Source: a virus
DNA length: 27,478 nucleotides
Strand: one strand, 5' to 3'
Virus record (IMG/VR): IMGVR_UViG_3300007363_000079
Location: 1-27,478 of that record
The translations under genes and the position numbers were made by a program. The notes beneath the pieces are model-generated. The model did no database searches and had not been told where the DNA came from. It saw only the letters and a program-made list of their open reading frames with translations. Within the stretch, counting starts at the first letter, position 1. Every line of letters starts with the position of its first letter. Shown one piece after another: positions 2,934 through 17,528 of the stretch.

Positions 2934-3506
2934 ATGGCAGCACGTCGGAAACTGCGTCGCGTATCACAACATCACCGCCAGGCGATCGACCGCATACACG
3001 AACGCCTGGCGCAGGACCTCCCGCGAGGCTCGATCACCGCGCCGATCGTGGTGGACGATCCGCACGGTATCGAGACGGGCGAAAAAATCGTCGTTCTGCG
3101 GAGCCTGAGAAATGATCCTATCGCCGCCATGCACGCGCGGGGGCAGGTGGATCAAGCGCAGTTTGCCGCCGCGCGCCATTGGCAGCGCTGTCACGAGCGG
3201 GTCGAGGTTGGCGGGGCCTCTGCCATCGACCCGGCAAAAGAAGCTGTGGACGGAGGGCCGGGCTATCCCGAGCCCCTGACTGACGCCATGCGGCGGGCAG
3301 CGCACGACCTCGCCCGCGCCGGCCGGGCCCTGGGCCAGGAAGGGGAGGCCATTGTGCGCGATGTTCTGGGGGCGGGAATGACGCTGTTGCTGGCGGCGGC
3401 AGCTCGCGGGCTGACGACGGAGCGGGAATTGATCTATTTCGGCGGCCGCTTCCGGGAGGCCCTGGAAACACTAGCCAAGGTGTTCGGCTACACGAACGCC
3501 CGCTAG
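2934..3506 (+). CDS. phage protein resembling DUF6456 proteins
   Basis: 190 aa when started at the ATG at 2934, which has an AGGGGG ribosome binding site and follows the stop at 2929-2931. The same frame is open upstream to 2796, but that part overlaps the real C-terminus of the replication gene. The N-terminus is strongly basic (MAARRKLRRVSQHHR). Then come RNDPIAAMHARGQVDQAQFAAARHWQR, AIDPAKEAVDGG and a helical C-terminus (VLGAGMTLLLAAAARGLT, FREALETLAKVFGY). This order, a basic block, an ARGQ(V/L)-x-A-Q-x-x-A(A/G)-x-x block and a helical end, resembles alphaproteobacterial DUF6456 proteins; the match is from memory. It may be DNA-binding or regulatory. It is the last gene before the IS element. 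Confidence 0.65.
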   Translation: MAARRKLRRVSQHHRQAIDRIHERLAQDLPRGSITAPIVVDDPHGIETGEKIVVLRSLRNDPIAAMHARGQVDQAQFAAARHWQRCHERVEVGGASAIDPAKEAVDGGPGYPEPLTDAMRRAAHDLARAGRALGQEGEAIVRDVLGAGMTLLLAAAARGLTTERELIYFGGRFREALETLAKVFGYTNAR

Positions 3507-3591
3507 GGCTTGACGAAGGCGACGGGTCATGATACACGAATCACCATGTTGCCGATTTGCGCCCGGACGGGGAAACCCGCTTGGGCGTTTT
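3507..3591. other. end of early operon, interrupted by the IS
   Basis: Short non-coding stretch between the early operon and the IS element. A weak stem (AAACCC/GGGcGTTT, 3573-3590) ending in T residues could be the early-operon terminator. If the IS is removed, a frame of only 25 codons from ATG 3529 runs across the insertion point and stops at 5911, too short to call a gene. Confidence 0.3.
3584..3591. repeat. left target site duplication
   Basis: GGCGTTTT directly before the left inverted repeat; an identical copy follows the right end. Length 8 matches the IS1595 family. Confidence 0.9.
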
Positions 3592-3617
3592 CGGCATTAT
3601 AACCTTGACAAAGCGGA
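3592..3617 (+). repeat. left terminal inverted repeat of the IS
   Basis: Reads CGGCATTATAACCTTGACAA followed by AGCGGA. It differs from the right end, read inwards, at two positions. It includes TTGACA (3605-3610), a perfect -35 box pointing inwards, but no good -10 is seen at 16-18 bases. Confidence 0.9.
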
Positions 3618-3621
3618 TAGT

Positions 3622-3843
3622 ATGCCTAGTTGTAAACCCGCATCCGAAGGCCAACAGTCAGAGGGTGCTGGCGCGCCCGAGGTTACGGAAGATATGGTGG
3701 CTGCTGGAGCAGAAGCTTTGCAATCGTTTTTGGAGAGCGGTTCCCTTTCTTATGAGTTCGTTGCCGAGCGGGTGTATATGTCCATGGCCCGTGTATCTGA
3801 TGCAAAAAGCGCTTATTGGCCTCTCGGCGCAGAGCCGGGTTGA
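3622..3843 (+). CDS. small IS passenger protein, unknown function
   Basis: 73 aa from the ATG at 3622, just inside the left inverted repeat, so it could be driven by the inward TTGACA. After a polar N-terminus, the segment VTEDMVAAGAEAL followed by YEFVAERVYMSMA is a two-helix pattern (VTxxMxxAGxxAL...VxxxVYxxM) seen in many small hypothetical proteins of alphaproteobacterial phages and mobile DNA; this is memory of the family. The frame extends upstream to 3529 across the IS boundary, which is why the internal ATG is preferred. It overlaps, tail to tail, the end of the minus-strand passenger at 3683, so one of the two may be longer on paper than in reality. Confidence 0.5.
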   Translation: MPSCKPASEGQQSEGAGAPEVTEDMVAAGAEALQSFLESGSLSYEFVAERVYMSMARVSDAKSAYWPLGAEPG

Positions 3844-4321
3844 TCACATGGCTGATGCGAATGGTGATTTTCAAGCAGTCTAATTGCATCGCAAGCAGGT
3901 CACCGAGAGAAAATAGGTCTTGCTCATATTCGAGCATTGATTTGGCGGTCAACTGATTGGTTATGCGGACGCTCCACGCCTCGTAGGCAAATGAACGATG
4001 GCACATCTTATCCCGCTCAAGACCAATCACATCGAGATGCTGGAGGCATACCTCAATCTCTTTTTTTGTTTTTTGTGTGCGTTTGCTGATCCGAAGCATA
4101 GCTAGGATTCTTGATTTCATGTCGCCGAACCGCATTCCGGCAAAAAGTATCCGGGCCTTATCCTCTTTGAGGCCAGAAAGTTTCCTGCCAAGCTGGTTCA
4201 CTAAACACTCGGCTTGTGCGTAGGATACGATGAACTCGCCTATGGTAGCGTAATAGTCCTTTTCGGATGGTGGCGGCGGATGTGAGCGCGCTTGCTGCGA
4301 CAGGTCAAAGAGTCCAGGCAT
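3683..4321 (-). CDS. IS passenger protein, unknown function
   Basis: 212 aa from the ATG at 4321, chosen because GAAGGA stands 8 bases upstream; the same frame is open further to 4396. The core (residues about 25-125) is helical: YYATIGEFIVSYAQAECLVN, LSGLKEDKARILFAGMRFGD, then IEVCLQHLDVIGLERDKMCH. It resembles hypothetical proteins with an F-x-x-x-V-x-x-[WY]-[AS]-x-[AL]-E helix and ARxIFxGMR motif found near transposons; no function is known. No membrane segment or catalytic motif is visible. The last 50 residues are basic, low in predicted structure and overlap the plus-strand gene at 3622-3843. The gene lies between the inverted repeats and so travels with the IS. Confidence 0.65.
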   Translation of the reverse strand: MPGLFDLSQQARSHPPPPSEKDYYATIGEFIVSYAQAECLVNQLGRKLSGLKEDKARILFAGMRFGDMKSRILAMLRISKRTQKTKKEIEVCLQHLDVIGLERDKMCHRSFAYEAWSVRITNQLTAKSMLEYEQDLFSLGDLLAMQLDCLKITIRISHVINPALRREANKRFLHQIHGPWTYTPARQRTHKKGNRSPKTIAKLLLQQPPYLP

Positions 4322-4520
4322 GGTCAAAGTCCTTCGGCCACAAAGTAAGGATATTGAAATCGCTCCCGACGCTTGGGAGCGATTTGAGCGCGCCATTGAC
4401 GTGGTAGCGAAAAGCCCGCCACAGCACAGGAAGTCTACCGAAACGAATCAGAGGCGCGGCAAGGGTAAAGGCGCCCCTGTGGGCAACCGAAAGAAAAAGC
4501 GCGGAGGATCAGGGAGTTGA
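4320..4520 (+). CDS. small basic IS passenger protein
   Basis: 66 aa. An N-terminal segment IEIAPDAWERFERAIDVVAK is an amphipathic helix, followed by SPPQHR and a highly basic tail (GRGK-like, KKKRGG). Proteins with D-A-W-E-R-F-x-x-A-[VI] and a K-S-P-P-x-H-R end occur widely in alphaproteobacteria without known function; the basic tail suggests nucleic-acid contact. Its ATG shares the CATG at 4319-4322 with the divergent minus-strand passenger. The ribosome binding site is weak. Confidence 0.5.
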   Translation: MVKVLRPQSKDIEIAPDAWERFERAIDVVAKSPPQHRKSTETNQRRGKGKGAPVGNRKKKRGGSGS

Positions 4521-4577
4521 TGCCGCTACACTTTGTAATTGCCGCATCAGCGCGCTTGTGATTCCATGCAAATGGTT

Positions 4578-4613
4578 GGGGCGGCCCCGTTGCCGCTAGA
4601 ACGGGACCGCCCC
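4578..4613 (-). terminator. strong hairpin just 3' of the tRNA-like gene
   Basis: Arms of 14 bp (4578-4591 and 4600-4613; GGGGCGG...CCGCCCC with one G-U pair) around an 8-base loop. It begins one base after the discriminator of the minus-strand tRNA-like gene. There is no U tract, so it may be a processing or stability element rather than an intrinsic terminator. Confidence 0.7.
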
Positions 4614-4614
4614 G

Positions 4615-4688
4615 AGGCTAGGACAGGAATTGAACCTGCGTCTCCCAGATTTCCAGCCCAGGGCGCATAACCATTCTGCCACCTAGCC
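4615..4688 (-). tRNA. tRNA-like gene, Cys-like body with GGA anticodon and enlarged anticodon arm
   Basis: Minus strand, 74 bases including the discriminator, no encoded CCA. The acceptor stem is perfect over 7 bp (GGCTAGG/CCTAGCC). The D arm GCAGAATGGTTATGC has a GCA/TGC stem and the GG of the D loop. The T arm is GCAGG-TTCAATT-CCTGT. These arms and the U discriminator are very close to bacterial tRNA-Cys. The anticodon loop CTGGAAA gives GGA (4652-4654), formally Ser, where tRNA-Cys would have CTGCAAA. The anticodon arm is three bases longer than in tRNA-Cys. One fold has a 6-bp stem with three wobble pairs and a normal 7-base loop; another has a U-U mismatch and an 8-base loop. It lies inside the IS, in transposase orientation, between two hairpins. 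It could be functional, a decoy or decayed. Confidence 0.75.
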
Positions 4689-4696
4689 AGCCTGAT

Positions 4697-4721
4697 CGCC
4701 CCGCCGCCCAACGGCGGGGCG
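4697..4721 (-). repeat. perfect 10-bp hairpin just 5' of the tRNA-like gene
   Basis: CGCCCCGCCG (4697-4706) and CGGCGGGGCG (4712-4721) are exact inverted copies with a 5-base loop. On the minus strand it sits between the transposase stop and the tRNA-like gene, 8 bases before the tRNA 5' end. It may end the transposase mRNA or mark a processing point. Confidence 0.75.
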
Positions 4722-4891
4722 AATCGATTCTGAGCATAGCAAGGTGGATTGTCGCGGCGCGGCCTGCCGGCCCGCGTGTCCACACGTTTTAAGATGTTGG
4801 TGGGCGGGATTGCCAGTATCGCACGCGGCGCACCTTACGTTTGCGGCCGGCGCGTTTCTTGCGCCATCGCAAGAATCGCTTGGCGGCGAAA
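4722..4891. other. region between transposase and tRNA hairpin
   Basis: 170 bases of the IS without a well-supported gene. On the minus strand a frame that begins inside the transposase (ATG 4974) continues to 4789 and encodes a very basic end (AKRFLRWRKKRAGRKRKVRR). It has no obvious ribosome binding site and may be chance. Confidence 0.4.
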
Positions 4892-5842
4892 CTATAGTTC
4901 GGCTGCGTGAGGCCGGCGGTACGTGAGGCGCTTGCCCTGGATGCCTTTGGCGAGCAGCGCCGCACGTTCCCCATCGTTCACACCGAGGGCGATGCGGTTG
5001 TTGTAGCGGAAATCGAATTCCGCGAGATAGCGATGCAGGTGCTTCTCAGCGCAATGCTGGTAGACGCCGCGCATCCCGCGCTTGAACACTGAGAAGTAGC
5101 CTTCGACGGTATTCGTAGTGACATCGCCGCGGGCATATTCGCCAGCGGTATGCACGACGGTTTCGTGTGCTGCGTATCCCTTGCCGACCTGCTTATAGAG
5201 TTTGCTTTCGTCGGTGTGCAGGCGGCTTTCTCGCTTGATGTTCTCGCGCACGATGGTCGCGACCGTGACCTGATCGGCAACCGGAACGTGGAACGTGCGC
5301 ACGCTGCCGCCTCGCTCGACCAAGGCGAGGATCGGGCGATTGTTTAGCACCTTGCGCTTGTAGGGACGGCCCTGGCGCTGCTTGGAGACTTGCGCCTGTG
5401 CAGTCTTGCCGAAGTAAGTTTCGTCGGCCTCGACCACTTGGCCTTCACCGCCCATGGGCTCAAGGCCGCCAGTACGCATTGCCTCGCGGAGGCGGTGCAT
5501 CATGAACCACGTTGATTTGTAGCTGATGCCGAGCATGCGGTGGACCTGATGGGCGCTCACGCCCTTCTTGCTGGCGGTCATCAGGAACAGCGCAGCCAGC
5601 CACTTGGTCAGCGGAATCTTGGAGCGCTCGAAAACGGTTTTCACCGTCACCGTGAATTGCTGGCGGCATTCCTTGCACTGGTAGACGCCAGCGCGGTGCG
5701 CCTCGCCTTCGAGCTTGGTCACGTCATCGCCGGTAACTCCACAGTGCGGGCAAACCGCACCGTTCGGCCACACGCGAGCTTCGAGCCATTCGCGGGCTTT
5801 GGCTTCGTCTTGAAAGATCGGGTTTTTGAGCAGGTCGGCCAT
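4892..5842 (-). CDS. IS1595-family transposase
   Basis: 316 aa, normal family length. It cuts and joins the element ends. Residues 31-59 are the N-terminal zinc ribbon (C31-x2-C34 and C56-x2-C59) expected in this family. The DDE-like core has VEADETYFGK with D140, LHTDES with D211, and the NTVEGYFSVFKRGMRG block (N244, E247), which in this family supplies the last metal ligand. The frame is intact, so the enzyme is probably active. The ATG at 5842 is preceded by a promoter in the right inverted repeat whose predicted transcript start falls at or next to the ATG, so the message may lack a leader. No ribosome binding site is visible. Confidence 0.95.
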   Translation of the reverse strand: MADLLKNPIFQDEAKAREWLEARVWPNGAVCPHCGVTGDDVTKLEGEAHRAGVYQCKECRQQFTVTVKTVFERSKIPLTKWLAALFLMTASKKGVSAHQVHRMLGISYKSTWFMMHRLREAMRTGGLEPMGGEGQVVEADETYFGKTAQAQVSKQRQGRPYKRKVLNNRPILALVERGGSVRTFHVPVADQVTVATIVRENIKRESRLHTDESKLYKQVGKGYAAHETVVHTAGEYARGDVTTNTVEGYFSVFKRGMRGVYQHCAEKHLHRYLAEFDFRYNNRIALGVNDGERAALLAKGIQGKRLTYRRPHAAEL

Positions 5843-5848
5843 GGGCGA

Positions 5849-5877
5849 AATCTAAGCCATGGGGTCTGCTTTGTCAA
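5849..5877 (-). promoter_or_regulatory. outward-end promoter for the transposase
   Basis: On the minus strand TTGACA (5872-5877), a 17-base spacer and TAGATT (5849-5854). The -35 box is part of the right inverted repeat. The expected start of transcription is about 5842, the A of the transposase ATG. Confidence 0.7.
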
Positions 5878-5890
5878 GGTTATAATTCCG
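5865..5890 (-). repeat. right terminal inverted repeat of the IS
   Basis: Read inwards: CGGAATTATAACCTTGACAA then AGCAGA, matching the left end except at two positions. Followed by the second GGCGTTTT copy. Confidence 0.9.
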
Positions 5891-5898
5891 GGCGTTTT
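5891..5898. repeat. right target site duplication
   Basis: GGCGTTTT, identical to 3584-3591, directly after the right inverted repeat. Confidence 0.9.
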
Positions 5899-5923
5899 GC
5901 ATTCCGGTTGTAAACGCCGGAAC

Positions 5924-5973
5924 GGGGCCGACCTGACACACCCCTCCCTGACTCTCCCGAGCGGGTCGGCCCC
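5924..5973 (+). repeat. 10-bp inverted repeat before the late operon
   Basis: GGGGCCGACC (5924-5933) and GGTCGGCCCC (5964-5973) are exact inverted copies with 30 bases between them. It lies in the non-coding gap before the first packaging gene. It could be an operator, a leader hairpin or a terminator of upstream transcription; there is no U tract. Confidence 0.5.
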
Positions 5974-6004
5974 GCACTCATTCGCGTGAAACATCGGAGC
6001 GGCA

Positions 6005-6247
6005 ATGCGCTGTGAAACCTGCCAGGGCGCGGGGATGGTCTCTGGCCTATGGCCAGAGTGGATGCGCGGCCCCTGCTCCGATTGCAACGGCACCGGCATA
6101 GCCCATTGCTGTGACGGACTGAGAGAGCAACCCGAACATGTCGAATCCCCGCGCAATCGGGATCAAGGCCCGACCAATACCCAAGCGCGGCAAGAAACGA
6201 TGGAAGCTCAAGCGCGAGCGCGGCAACCGGGGGCAGGGGAAGCGTAG
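6005..6247 (+). CDS. small CxxCxGxG zinc-finger protein
   Basis: 80 aa. Two DnaJ-type motifs, CETCQGAG (3-10) and CSDCNGTG (24-31), are expected to hold one zinc ion, with HCC at 34-36 as further possible ligands. The rest is polar, with no other domain. DnaJ-like zinc fingers bind unfolded protein in the chaperone, but isolated short ones are common in phages without proven role. A GGAG ribosome binding site stands 5 bases before the ATG. It is the first gene after the inverted repeat and likely heads the packaging operon. Its 3' half is overlapped by another small frame. Confidence 0.65.
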   Translation: MRCETCQGAGMVSGLWPEWMRGPCSDCNGTGIAHCCDGLREQPEHVESPRNRDQGPTNTQARQETMEAQARARQPGAGEA

Positions 6248-6251
6248 GTAG
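6138..6251 (+). CDS. nested small very basic protein
   Basis: 37 aa in a different frame, starting inside the zinc-finger gene and ending 3 bases before the next ATG. About 16 residues are Lys or Arg (KRGKKRWKLKRERG). The composition suggests nucleic-acid binding if it is made. The ribosome binding site is weak. It could be the real gene here with the zinc-finger gene shorter, or a chance frame; the end position fits operon spacing. Confidence 0.4.
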   Translation: MSNPRAIGIKARPIPKRGKKRWKLKRERGNRGQGKRR

Positions 6252-6254
6252 GCT

Positions 6255-6503
6255 ATGGCAGCGCGTAAACGACGCGGCACCACCCATGAAGGATGGGTAG
6301 AAGAAGTCCGCGATAAAATCCGCACCAGTATGCTGGTGAACCGCCTTATAGATCATGGGCTTGGCAAAATCGATTTGAGCCAGACGCAATTGAGGGCCAT
6401 CGAGATTGCGATGCGCAAGACGCTGCCTGATCTGACGGAATCGAAAAACAACACCAACGTATCCGGCAAGCTCGAAATCGGATGGCTGCCGAGCGCCGAA
6501 TAA
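6255..6503 (+). CDS. probable small terminase subunit
   Basis: 82 aa, directly upstream of and overlapping the large terminase by 22 bases. The N-terminus is basic (MAARKRRG). The body is helical, with LSQTQLRAIEIAMRKTLPDL as the strongest segment, which resembles the L-[ST]-x-x-Q-x-x-A-[IA]-x-x-L-[LM]-x-K-x-L-P-D-L pattern of small phage proteins placed before large terminases. The small subunit recognises the packaging site and stimulates the large subunit. The assignment rests mainly on position and that pattern; no direct activity motif is visible. Confidence 0.6.
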   Translation: MAARKRRGTTHEGWVEEVRDKIRTSMLVNRLIDHGLGKIDLSQTQLRAIEIAMRKTLPDLTESKNNTNVSGKLEIGWLPSAE

Positions 6504-7789
6504 TCGAGTACGCCCCCCGTCGCGTATTCCTGCCCTATCATGACCGCACCCAAAGATGGGCTGTCATGGTGGCGCACCGCCGGGCCGGCAAGACCGTCGC
6601 CTGTATCAACGATGTGATTAAGCGGGCTGTCTGCCTGTCTCGACCGCATGGGCGGTTTGCCTATGTCGCACCCTTCCTGGCCCAGGCCAAAGAAGTGGCA
6701 TGGGAATATCTCAAGCGGTTTGCCCTTCCGATCACGGCGGACAAGAACGAGTCCGAATTGTGGATTGAGCTGTTGAACGGCTCCCGCATCCGCATCCATG
6801 GCGCCGACAATCCCGACCGGCTCCGCGGCGCCTATCTCGACGGCGTGGTGCTCGACGAATACGCCGACATGCGGCCATCGGTATGGGGCGAGGTTATCCG
6901 CCCGATGCTCGCCGATCGCCAGGGCTGGGCCACGTTCATCGGCACCCCCAAGGGCCGTAACGAGTTCTTTGATATTTGGGAGCACGCCCAAGCGGATCAC
7001 CGCTGGTTTCATGCGATGCTGCGGGCATCTGAAACCAAGCTGCTACCGGCGGCGGAATTGGAGCTTGCCCGCGGGGACATGACCCCGGAGCAGTACGAAC
7101 AGGAGTTTGAGTGCTCGTTCGAGGCCGCCATTTTGGGCGCATACTTTGGCAAGGAGATTGCCGAGGCTGACCGACAAGGCCGCATCGGTGATGTGCCATA
7201 TGACCCGGCCGTGCCCGTGCATACCGGATGGGACCTTGGCATCGGTGACTCGACGGCCATCTGGTTCTTTCAGGTGGTAGGCAACGAGGTACACTATATC
7301 GACCACTACGAGGCGCACAGCCAGCCATTGGACCATTATATCGCCGTTCTGGCGTCGAAGCCCTATCACTACGGCTATGACTTTCTCCCGCACGATGCCA
7401 AGGCGCGGGAGTTGATATCGGGACGCTCGCGCGTCGAGCACCTGGCCAAGAGCGATCGGCCTGTTCGCGTGCTGCCTCAGACCAAAATCGAGGACGGCAT
7501 CAACGCCGCGCGGCTGGTTATCCCAAAGGCGTGGTTTGACCGCGACAAGTGTGCGGACGGTATCGAGGCGCTGCGCCAGTATCGCGCGGAATTCGACGAA
7601 AAGACTAAGGCGTTCAAGGATCGCCCCCGCCATGATTGGGCCAGCCATTCGGCGGACGGCTTCAAGTCAACCGCCATCGGCTATCGGATCATGACAGCCG
7701 ACGAAGCACCAAAGGACCCGATCGCCGAAATGCTGAAACCCCGCACCCTTAACGATATGCTCGACGATCTAGACCGCGACGATGGCTGA
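6482..7789 (+). CDS. terL: terminase large subunit
   Basis: 435 aa. This motor pumps DNA into the prohead and cuts it. The ATPase half shows the Walker A HRRAGKT (32-38) and Walker B GVVLDE (121-126), followed by the coupling motif FIGTPKGRNEFF (about 159-170). The nuclease half has GWDLGIGDST near residue 250, PHDAK near 305 and DWASHSADGFK near 385, giving the Asp residues of the RNase H-like fold. Length and order are normal. The end overlaps the portal start by 8 bases, as is usual in packaging operons. Confidence 0.96.
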   Translation: MAAERRIIEYAPRRVFLPYHDRTQRWAVMVAHRRAGKTVACINDVIKRAVCLSRPHGRFAYVAPFLAQAKEVAWEYLKRFALPITADKNESELWIELLNGSRIRIHGADNPDRLRGAYLDGVVLDEYADMRPSVWGEVIRPMLADRQGWATFIGTPKGRNEFFDIWEHAQADHRWFHAMLRASETKLLPAAELELARGDMTPEQYEQEFECSFEAAILGAYFGKEIAEADRQGRIGDVPYDPAVPVHTGWDLGIGDSTAIWFFQVVGNEVHYIDHYEAHSQPLDHYIAVLASKPYHYGYDFLPHDAKARELISGRSRVEHLAKSDRPVRVLPQTKIEDGINAARLVIPKAWFDRDKCADGIEALRQYRAEFDEKTKAFKDRPRHDWASHSADGFKSTAIGYRIMTADEAPKDPIAEMLKPRTLNDMLDDLDRDDG

Positions 7790-9875
7790 CAGCGCCAACG
7801 AGCCGCAGGTCGAGCGGACCGACAACAACCCAAAGGACACTGCCACCTTCTGGCAGGTCCAGCTTGGCCTTGCCGACAAGGATCAGCAGGACTGGGAAAA
7901 GGACGCGAAGTCCGTTGTCGATCGCTATCGGGCCGAGCGCAAGCGCGCCAAGAACACGGACAGCCGTTGGTTCAACATCCTCTATTCCAACACCGAGACC
8001 CTGAAATCCTCTTTGTACGGCAAGGCCGCCAAGCCGGATGTACGCAGGCGGTTTGCTGACAAAGACCCGGCAGCCCGCGAGGCTGCCGAAGTCATCGAGC
8101 GTGCGCTGGTCTATGCGGCCGAAGCCTATGACGTGGATCGCTGCATTGAGCCGGCGCTGCACGACTACCTGCTGCCCGGCCGTGGCATCGTGCGCGTCGA
8201 GTACGAGCCCGTCATTAAGGAACGTCCTGCCATCGACCCTGTGACGGCTATGCCGGCCATGGGCGCGGATGGCAAGCCGGTGATGGAGGAGTTTGTCGCG
8301 GATCAAGTCTGCCGCGAGCGCTACGTTTATTGGGGTGACTATCGCCAGTCGCCGGCTCGCACGTTTGATGATGTATGGTGGATCGCCTTCCGCCACATCA
8401 TGACGCGCGATGATCTGCGCGATAACAAGTTTACCAACCCGGCCGCCATCCCGCTCAACTGGTCGCCGAACGCGGATGACAAGCGCCCGGTCCCCGATGA
8501 CCTCAAGCGGGCTGAGGTATGGGAAATATGGGACAAGAGCCGCCGCAAGCGGGTCTGGATCGTCAAGGGTTATGACAAGGCGCTGCGGATCGATGATGAT
8601 CCGTATGGGCTCGAAGATTTCTTCCCGACGCCTGAGCCGCTGGTGTCCGTCATGGATACCGAGACGCTGGTGCCGCGTCCTGAGTATTTCGAGTATCGCG
8701 ACCAGGCGGATGACCTCGACGAAATCGTGGGGCGTATTTCGCGGCTGACACGCGCCCTCAAGCGCCGAGGCGTCTATGATCAGGCGGTGAAGGAGCTAAA
8801 GCGCCTCGCGACGGCGGGCGATAACCAGTTTATTCCGGTCGAGAATTGGGCGGCGTTGTCCACCAAGGGTGGGTTGCAAGCGGCGTTCCAGACTGAGGAC
8901 CTGAGCACGATCGCCGTGGTGCTCAAGGAACTCTATATCCAGCGCGACATGCTGGTGCAGTCCATCTATGAGTTGACCGGCATTGCCGACATCATGCGCG
9001 GGTCATCGGACCCGAACGAGACGCTGGGCGCCCAGCAGCTCAAGGCGCAATTCGGATCCTCGCGGCTCAAGCGCCGGCAGCGCGCGGTGCAGAAGTGGAT
9101 CAGGGATATTTACAAGCTCAAGGCCGAAATCATGGCCGAGCATTTCGAGCCGCAAGTCTTGCAGGAAATGACCGCAATCCAGGTCACGCCGGAAGTGATG
9201 CAAATCCTGCGCTCGGACAAGTTGCGGGCCTACCGCATCGATATCGAGACCGATTCGACGGTGTTCGAGGACGAGGCGGCCGTCAAGCAACAGACCACGG
9301 AAGTCTTGGGCGCCGTCAGTCAATTCCTCCGCGATGGCGTGCCGGCGGCGCAGGCGGCGCCTGAGTTGGTGCCGTTGCTGTTCGAAATGCTTGAGGTTGG
9401 TGTCCGGCAGTTCAAGCGCGGCCGTGCGCTTGAGGACGTGATCGAGCAGACCAAAGAGGCGCTGATGCAGAAGGCACAGCAGCCGCCCCCGCCTGACCCG
9501 AAGATCGTCGAGGCTGAGAAGAAAGCCGAACTTGAGCGTGCCAAGGCTGAGCAGGACGCGCAGATGGCGCAGGCCAAGACGCAAGCCGATCTTGTGATGG
9601 CGCAGGAGAAACACAACCTCGACCTGACCCAGGCCCGCGAGCAGCACCAATTGGCGATGCAAAAGGCACAAATGGATATGGTCAAGACGCTGGTGACAGC
9701 GGCGGCCAAGCCAAGGCCGACTGGCGAGGACGGCGAGGGCGAGACCGAGCAGGAAGGCCCTGACGTGGACAGCCTGCTTGAGAAAATCGCCGCCATGGTT
9801 CAGCCGCCGCAGCCACGTGGAATGCGCGTGGTGAGGGATGAGCAAGGCCGCGTGAGCCATACGGAACCACTATAG
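7782..9875 (+). CDS. portal (head-tail connector) protein
   Basis: 697 aa, in the size range of podovirus portals. Twelve copies form the ring through which DNA enters and leaves the capsid. Features supporting this are its place directly after terL, the N-terminal half with WFNILYSNTETLKSSLYG and YGDYRQSPARTFDDVWWIAF, the helical LTGIADIMRGSSDPNETLGA block near residue 400 typical of portal stems, and a C-terminal coiled coil rich in Ala, Glu, Lys and Gln (about 570-640). A Gly/Glu-rich linker and a short conserved-looking tail end the protein. Confidence 0.92.
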   Translation: MADSANEPQVERTDNNPKDTATFWQVQLGLADKDQQDWEKDAKSVVDRYRAERKRAKNTDSRWFNILYSNTETLKSSLYGKAAKPDVRRRFADKDPAAREAAEVIERALVYAAEAYDVDRCIEPALHDYLLPGRGIVRVEYEPVIKERPAIDPVTAMPAMGADGKPVMEEFVADQVCRERYVYWGDYRQSPARTFDDVWWIAFRHIMTRDDLRDNKFTNPAAIPLNWSPNADDKRPVPDDLKRAEVWEIWDKSRRKRVWIVKGYDKALRIDDDPYGLEDFFPTPEPLVSVMDTETLVPRPEYFEYRDQADDLDEIVGRISRLTRALKRRGVYDQAVKELKRLATAGDNQFIPVENWAALSTKGGLQAAFQTEDLSTIAVVLKELYIQRDMLVQSIYELTGIADIMRGSSDPNETLGAQQLKAQFGSSRLKRRQRAVQKWIRDIYKLKAEIMAEHFEPQVLQEMTAIQVTPEVMQILRSDKLRAYRIDIETDSTVFEDEAAVKQQTTEVLGAVSQFLRDGVPAAQAAPELVPLLFEMLEVGVRQFKRGRALEDVIEQTKEALMQKAQQPPPPDPKIVEAEKKAELERAKAEQDAQMAQAKTQADLVMAQEKHNLDLTQAREQHQLAMQKAQMDMVKTLVTAAAKPRPTGEDGEGETEQEGPDVDSLLEKIAAMVQPPQPRGMRVVRDEQGRVSHTEPL

Positions 9876-16094: not shown

Positions 16095-17528
16095 ATGCTG
16101 ATTTCGCCGGAGTACCGCGCGTTACAACAGCAACTCCACGCCACACAAGACTATGGCTTTTCGTCGGGGCGCTGGGTGAATGCCGTTCTGTGCGCCAAGG
16201 AAATGGACCATTGCGAAGATATTTTAGATTATGGATGTGGTCAGGGGCGTTTGAAAGCGGCAATTGGCGATTGCGTTCGCGAGTATGACCCGGCCATCCC
16301 CGGCAAGGATTCAGAACCATCCCCGGCCGATCTTGTGGTATGCACAGACGTTCTGGAACACATCGAGCCAGATTGCATCGATAATGTTTTGTTGCATATT
16401 CGCAGCAAAACAAAAAAACGGTTGTTTTTCAACATCGCCCTGCGATCGTCCGAAAAAACGATGGCGGACGGCCGCAATGCTCACCTGATCGTCGAAAGCG
16501 CTTCGTGGTGGCTGGATAGGCTGTCTCCGTATTTTCGGGTTATCGAGTACAAGGAAAGTCCTGGGTTTGAACTTGTCGGGATAGCCCAGCCCATTTCGAT
16601 CATTGGGGAAATCAAGTCCTTTGGGGTCATGAAGGATGAGCGCAACGACCATACCAAGGTCAACGTGCTCAAGACCCCGAAGCGGATACCGGACTATCCG
16701 GTTCGTCCCCATCCGGGAATTGCGCTGATCGCCTGCTATGGCCCATCGCTCAAGAGCACATACAAGGGCATCGAGCAGCAGCGCAAGAAATTAGGTGCCA
16801 CTCTGGTTTCAGTGTCCGGCGCGCATGACTTCCTGCGCAAGCATCGGATCACGCCAGACATCCACGTGGAGTGCGACCCGCGCCCCCACAAGGGCAAGAT
16901 GATGCGCAAGCTATCGCGCAATACCCGCTACTATATGGCGTCATGCTGCCATCCCGACGTGATCGACCAGCTCAAGGGTCAGGACGTAACGCTGTGGCAC
17001 CTGTACAACGGGCCTGAGAGTTTCGAGATACGCAACATTCGCAGCGAGGAAACTGCCGCGATGATACCGGGCGGCGGTTCGGTCGGGCTGCGCACTATAA
17101 CGCTGTTGTATTTTCTCGGCTTCCGCAAGTTTGTGATCCACGGCATGGATTGCTCGTTTGACGGCGACGAACAGCACGCCGGCACGCATTCCGGCAAGGT
17201 GCAGAAGGTCGTTTCAGTCAACCCCGGCTGCAAGATCGGCGACGAACACGTGAAATCGCAGCGATGGTACAGCACGTCGCCCGTGCTGATCTCGTATGCG
17301 AATTACATGCTCAAGGATTTGCGCACCGGCAAATATCCCGGCTGCGAATTTTTCTGGTACGGCGATGGCCTGTTCCAGGAAATGCTGAAAATGCAAAACG
17401 CGCAGCTTGCGGCGATCGACGCCGACGCCAAGGCGCGAGGCATTAATCCCACCTATCAGGAACCGCGCGACTATTTCAGCATGACTGAAAAGGACGTTGC
17501 GCAATTCGAGAAGGAGAATGCCGCTTGA
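16095..17528 (+). CDS. methyltransferase fused to a DUF115/MptE-like domain
   Basis: 477 aa with two domains. Residues about 25-195 are a class I SAM-dependent methyltransferase with ILDYGCGQGRL (43-53) as the SAM-binding glycine loop and VVCTDVLEHIEPD (about 80-92) as its motif IV region. Residues about 205-420 match DUF115/6-hydroxymethylpterin pyrophosphokinase MptE-like proteins: IALIACYGPSL, then ITPDIHVECDP and PGGGSVGLRTITLLYFLGF with FVIHGMDCSF. Such domains occur in motility accessory (Maf) proteins that glycosylate flagellin. The gene follows the glycosyltransferase at once (stop then ATG), so both likely modify the same target. A phage fusion of this kind is uncommon. Confidence 0.82.
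   Translation: MLISPEYRALQQQLHATQDYGFSSGRWVNAVLCAKEMDHCEDILDYGCGQGRLKAAIGDCVREYDPAIPGKDSEPSPADLVVCTDVLEHIEPDCIDNVLLHIRSKTKKRLFFNIALRSSEKTMADGRNAHLIVESASWWLDRLSPYFRVIEYKESPGFELVGIAQPISIIGEIKSFGVMKDERNDHTKVNVLKTPKRIPDYPVRPHPGIALIACYGPSLKSTYKGIEQQRKKLGATLVSVSGAHDFLRKHRITPDIHVECDPRPHKGKMMRKLSRNTRYYMASCCHPDVIDQLKGQDVTLWHLYNGPESFEIRNIRSEETAAMIPGGGSVGLRTITLLYFLGFRKFVIHGMDCSFDGDEQHAGTHSGKVQKVVSVNPGCKIGDEHVKSQRWYSTSPVLISYANYMLKDLRTGKYPGCEFFWYGDGLFQEMLKMQNAQLAAIDADAKARGINPTYQEPRDYFSMTEKDVAQFEKENAA

Follow-up and report, generated by a model that had tools for sequence, protein, structure and literature searches.

Introduction

The natural mistranslating tRNAs known so far are for the most part encoded on chromosomes. 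The tRNA gene described here is carried by an IS1595-family element within a phage genome, represented by an IMG/VR record of 27,478 bases that was analysed over its full length (the window) and recognised as a phage from genes for terminase, portal and capsid. Judged by expected action, the nearest known kind is tRNA-ProX of Streptomyces and Kitasatospora, a natural mistranslating tRNA (PMC11415595). It likewise joins the body of one identity to the anticodon of another and is expected to mistranslate, but it has a Pro body, A34 and an ordinary arm, is chromosomal and is encoded with its own ProRSx, whereas the element in the window is without a synthetase. Longer anticodon stems, as found here, are also known from the non-canonical bacterial selC* tRNA-Cys (of Cys identity) and allo-tRNAs (PMC7609411); in these the acceptor branches are extended as well and the variable arms are long, whereas both parts are ordinary in the tRNA of the window.

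With alphaproteobacterial tRNA-Cys(GCA) the gene has the acceptor end, the D arm, the T arm and U73 in common, and it differs in that its anticodon is GGA, its anticodon arm is longer by three bases, its CCA end is not encoded and its location is on a transposon. In its transposase domains, its inverted repeats, its target duplication of 8 bp and its small passenger proteins the element in the window is like other passenger-bearing IS1595-family elements, but it counts a tRNA among its passengers. Phages also carry tRNA genes on their genomes; the present one differs from these in having come by transposon and in the mismatch of identity between body and anticodon. The open-licence literature that was searched, itself a part of all literature, gave no report of an insertion sequence with tRNA cargo.

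Form and ancestry of the tRNA gene

The sole tRNA called by ARAGORN in the window (4614-4688, minus strand) was named 'Ser' with anticodon GGA, and the Rfam tRNA model RF00005 matched 4615-4688 on the same strand with 48.9 bits (E 8e-8, gathering score 29), which provides covariance-model support for the gene. The acceptor (GGCUAGG/CCUAGCC, 7 bp), D (GCA/UGC) and T (GCAGG/CCUGU, 5 bp) stems are intact. The variable loop has 4 nt, and the long class II variable arm of tRNA-Ser is absent, though GGA is a Ser anticodon. The discriminator is U73 (window position 4615), as in bacterial tRNA-Cys, the acceptor end G1-C72, G2-C71, C3-G70 of ordinary tRNA-Cys is kept, and GGA takes the place of the tRNA-Cys anticodon GCA.

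A covariance model (R1) was built from this tRNA and its single relative, at a locus termed L043, and was used to search two sets of alphaproteobacterial genomes, of 41 and 385. The scores of the two members (99 for the window, 96 for L043) reflect their use in building the model. The best other matches checked, at 63-76 bits, were ordinary tRNA-Cys(GCA) at 24 of 24 loci, and the next matches after tRNA-Cys reached at most 46.5 bits in the 41-genome set. The closest ordinary tRNA by BLAST in a small reference set was tRNA-Cys as well (74% over 74 nt). Because the best matches of R1 that were checked are all tRNA-Cys(GCA), the gene is considered a descendant of tRNA-Cys. A first-pass annotation of the window, made from the letters alone, had described Cys-like acceptor, D and T arms with a U discriminator and a GGA anticodon in the loop CUGGAAA, and both descriptions are borne out by these comparisons.

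The same annotation had called the tRNA a passenger of a transposon, and this proved to be so. The gene lies between the inverted repeats (26 bp, 92% complementary) of an IS1595-family element that is flanked by the 8-bp target duplication GGCGTTTT and holds an IS1595 transposase, the tRNA and small passenger open reading frames (ORFs). It is therefore cargo of a transposon that is now within a phage genome. The tRNA directly follows the transposase on the same strand.

Enlarged anticodon arm and comparison with L043

From base 26 to the T stem, the tRNA has 24 nt as compared with 21 in ordinary alphaproteobacterial tRNA-Cys, so that the three extra bases counted earlier between base 26 and the variable loop are correct. 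L043 was the single relative obtained by a pattern search of 84,980 genomes, and no relative beyond it was found when plasmids, phages, viral contigs and genomes were searched for the element or the tRNA. Additional matches of further pattern searches were not tRNAs, and the enlarged-gap matches from one search turned out to be an amber-type phage tRNA of another kind, whose arm has the ordinary 5 bp; both sets were discarded.

The L043 tRNA is likewise tRNA-Cys-like with GGA, and CUGGAAAUCUGG is common to both GGA tRNAs. Both carry an extra base at either side of the loop, numbered 31a and 38a; the two bases form G.U in the window tRNA and C x U in that of L043, and on the 5' side the window arm is longer by one more base. 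As 31a and 38a are added symmetrically, the arm can be drawn as 6 bp with a 7-nt loop or as 5 bp with a 9-nt loop. The first-pass annotation had offered a 6-bp stem or an 8-base loop; the comparison with L043 favours the 6-bp stem (or, equivalently, 5 bp with a 9-nt loop) over the 8-nt loop, and the four-base reading that had also been proposed is therefore left without support.

When the two tRNAs were compared, 97.6% of cells were paired and seven pairs were changed on both sides between the two sequences, as against 26-52% paired cells and at most two double-sided changes in slid controls; a version of the arm without a bulged U gave 95.1% and six double-sided changes. With such pairing and seven double-sided changes neither copy resembles a decayed copy, and the covariation, coming from two sequences, is suggestive and does not amount to family-level proof. 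Related copies with decayed arms and no compensatory changes had been named as an observation that would refute the first-pass reading; the outcome was otherwise, since the tRNA is absent from the related IS1595 elements in which it was sought and the arms of L043 are intact.

Overall, the two tRNAs are identical at 51 of 74 positions, no closer to each other than either is to ordinary tRNA-Cys, and a common descent of the arm is suggested by the shared oddities. The acceptor, D and T arms are intact, and the oddities and all insertions and deletions are confined to the anticodon arm. Whether substitutions are more frequent in the anticodon arm than in the body was tested against eight references; the excess was at best borderline (p 0.025 and 0.04, against two of them) and was not used as support.

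In L043, the tRNA lies between 56-bp direct repeats (95% identical, 715 bp apart) that correspond to the 3' end of a protein gene. Within this 0.7-kb island it stands beside a ribbon-helix-helix gene, followed by a standard terminator. In the window and in L043 alike, one strong hairpin is found a few bases upstream of the tRNA and another downstream of it. An ordinary tRNA-Cys is present elsewhere in the genome that holds L043. The contig with L036 and L043 (WNWL01000003.1) is titled Oceanobacillus sp. HTM 045; its genes and tRNA-Cys look alphaproteobacterial, and it is probably mislabelled or a mixed assembly.

tRNAs in and around other IS1595 elements

Seventy-five IS1595 elements, that of the window included, were delimited by both ends and together hold 124 kb of cargo. 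The default threshold of ARAGORN was kept, because a lowered threshold gave many false tRNAs. The majority of the elements are without a tRNA, and tRNA sequences were found inside the ends of three others (L128, L017 and L220). The L128 element (5935-8821 of a phage contig, target duplication GGAAAATG) contains two, with anticodon arms of ordinary size. One has a class II tRNA-Leu body and the anticodon UUA, which reads the ochre stop UAA (7651-7732, minus strand; Rfam 57.6 bits; best matches 20 of 20 tRNA-Leu, 17 UAA and 3 CAA); the other has a tRNA-Arg body and the anticodon ACC (7117-7189, minus strand; Rfam 56.7 bits; best matches 20 of 20 tRNA-Arg). Between the two is a small gene on their own strand, and both lie on the strand opposite to the transposase.

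The L017 sequence (5810-5885, minus strand), within an IS1595 element at 3287-6602 of another phage contig and again on the strand opposite to the transposase, is degenerate and tRNA-like, with an 8-nt anticodon loop and an Rfam score of 27.9 bits, just under the gathering score. In L220, a tRNA-Leu(CAA) with a broken acceptor end (4063-4150, plus strand) lies near one end of an IS1595 element. The anticodon contradicts the body in all three well-formed cargo tRNAs. With 5 tRNAs in 124 kb inside elements and 10 in roughly 460 kb outside them, an enrichment of tRNAs in cargo is not clear. A phage tRNA at L004 (9755-9828, plus strand), with an Arg-like body, the Ser anticodon GCU and a hairpin before it, lies 0.5 kb outside the IS1595 element most similar to that of the window; the mismatch of body and anticodon may thus be a trait of these phages and not of the transposon.

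Interpretation

The explanation to which we lean, tentatively, is that of an anticodon-shifted tRNA of the suppressor or missense type, weakly charged and weakly decoding. An added pair of bases on a tRNA-Cys-derived gene with the Ser anticodon GGA would have given the enlarged arm. The tRNA would be transcribed, cut out by host tRNA-processing enzymes and supplied with CCA; low-level charging, most likely with Cys, would be followed by inefficient reading of UCU and UCC codons, possibly to some benefit. Cys is the most likely charge because U73, which ranks among the major Cys determinants (PMC9976931), is kept together with the acceptor end of ordinary tRNA-Cys. The loop bases C32, U33, A37 and A38 are those of a decoding loop.

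Several points weigh on the other side. Seryl-tRNA synthetase expects the long variable arm of class II tRNAs, which is absent here. The anticodon arm is wobble-rich and exceeds the usual length by one base pair, positions 15 and 48 of the window copy form A15-C48 in place of a standard Levitt pair, and no promoter was recognised directly upstream of the tRNA. The two known members are the only ones and, as stated, stand no nearer to each other than to ordinary tRNA-Cys; no aminoacyl-tRNA synthetase is found among the ORFs of the element, unlike the case of tRNA-ProX. The other major Cys determinant, the anticodon GCA needed by cysteinyl-tRNA synthetase, is lost (PMC9976931).

Bacterial leucyl-tRNA synthetase is independent of the anticodon, and the tRNA-Leu(UUA) of L128 should therefore be chargeable and is the better candidate for an active suppressor. 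The mismatches of body and anticodon in the elements of the window and L128 suggest, without proving it, that such elements can spread code-misreading RNAs. The wider proposal, that IS1595-type transposons of phages and alphaproteobacteria carry anticodon-shifted tRNAs (Cys/GGA, Leu/ochre UUA, Arg/ACC) as mobile missense and nonsense suppressors and so alter codon meaning locally in the recipient phage or host, is doubtful. Taken as a whole, the first-pass interpretation of the tRNA is partly supported.

A non-decoding tRNA or decoy is a less probable explanation, though a close rival. The outer tRNA form would engage tRNA enzymes, and the altered arm would keep the RNA off the ribosome or bait or resist anticodon-loop nucleases, with the passenger protein pA as a possible partner. 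Such a role would suit a molecule whose oddities all lie in the anticodon arm, and pA has an Rx4H motif, as in HEPN ribonucleases, which recurs as RNEIVH in a distant relative at a like position in L027. The HEPN assignment of pA, however, comes from this motif alone; no family match was obtained in Pfam, PADLOC or PHROG, and the structure model (pLDDT 43.5) is unusable. Moreover, pA is present without the tRNA in L027, the tRNA is accompanied by the ribbon-helix-helix gene instead in L043, and the tRNAs of L128 have ordinary-sized anticodon arms. Slow decay, by which a host or phage tRNA captured with cargo would drift without function, is a rival of similar probability. It would account for the clearly damaged sequences in L017 and L220, for the unclear enrichment of tRNAs in cargo and for the wobble-rich arm, the A15-C48 pair and the missing CCA of the copy in the window, but every acceptor, D and T pair is intact. 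Upon random substitution of ordinary tRNA-Cys with 6 to 10 changes, all 15 of the acceptor, D and T pairs stayed intact in only 7 to 1% of trials; the window tRNA carries 8 body changes relative to its nearest tRNA-Cys, several of which are paired. The same GGA arm is also found in a second, independent mobile copy, L043.

A role as an RNA-processing signal is improbable. Here the tRNA form would let RNase P and 3' enzymes cut the transposon transcript and set the end of the transposase mRNA, the anticodon being irrelevant; this would agree with the place of the tRNA directly after the transposase, with the hairpins on both sides (in L043 too) and with the small gene flanked by the L128 tRNAs, yet the tRNAs of L128 and L017 lie on the strand opposite to the transposase and most IS1595 elements have none. 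Remnants of integrative elements are falsely annotated as tRNAs in prokaryotes (PMC9897764) and often account for tRNA calls that are odd and surplus. An origin as such a fragment or attachment-site remnant is nevertheless hardly credible and was rejected as contradicted by the anatomy of gene and element, since the gene is complete with every arm paired, and its location is no attachment site but the interior of a transposon whose bounds are set by inverted repeats and a target duplication.

Features of the element and its surroundings

The features of the element are collated in Table 1. Elsewhere in the window, the phage encodes a protein with a DnaA C-terminal DNA-binding domain (997-1539; PF08299, E 3.5e-28) and, at 16095-17528, a protein in which an MptE-like domain (PF01973) is accompanied by a weak match to methyltransferases.

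Table 1. Positions in the window of the IS1595-family element, its tRNA gene and associated features.
Feature	Position	Strand	Basis or remark
Target-site duplication GGCGTTTT, 8 bp, copy 1	3584..3591		
IS1595-family element containing the tRNA	3592..5890		inverted repeats, target duplication, transposase
Terminal inverted repeat, 26 bp	3592..3617		repeat comparison
pC, possible passenger, 73 aa	3622..3843	+	ORF; similar-looking ORF at the same place in L027 (judged without alignment)
pA, passenger, about 211 aa, motif RDKMCH (HEPN-like Rx4H); start inferred	3683..4318	-	distant relative in L027
pB, small basic passenger, 66 aa	4320..4520	+	homologues in IS1595 elements L008, L026, L078, L085 and others
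Strong hairpin directly downstream of tRNA, without T run	4578..4613	-	fold about -33 kcal/mol for the stretch
tRNA gene: tRNA-Cys body, GGA anticodon, enlarged anticodon arm, U73, CCA not encoded	4615..4688	-	ARAGORN, Rfam RF00005, covariance model R1
Enlarged anticodon arm: wobble-rich 6-bp stem, or 5 bp and 9-nt loop	4644..4663	-	sequence, comparison with L043
Anticodon GGA within loop CUGGAAA	4652..4654	-	sequence; identical loop in L043
Strong hairpin, 8 nt upstream of tRNA	4697..4721	-	fold about -27 kcal/mol
IS1595 (ISXO2-like) transposase, 316 aa, zinc ribbon	4892..5842	-	PF12762 E 3e-34, PF12760 E 3e-11
Terminal inverted repeat, 26 bp	5865..5890		repeat comparison
Target-site duplication GGCGTTTT, 8 bp, copy 2	5891..5898		

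Significance

Should tRNAs of this kind be charged and take part in translation, code-altering tRNAs could travel on transposons from phage to bacterium and back. This would be relevant to the presence of tRNAs in phages, to how codon reassignment evolves and to code engineering with tRNA scaffolds. Should they be decoys or decaying cargo, they would still form a concrete set for the study of how tRNA bodies tolerate anticodon shifts.
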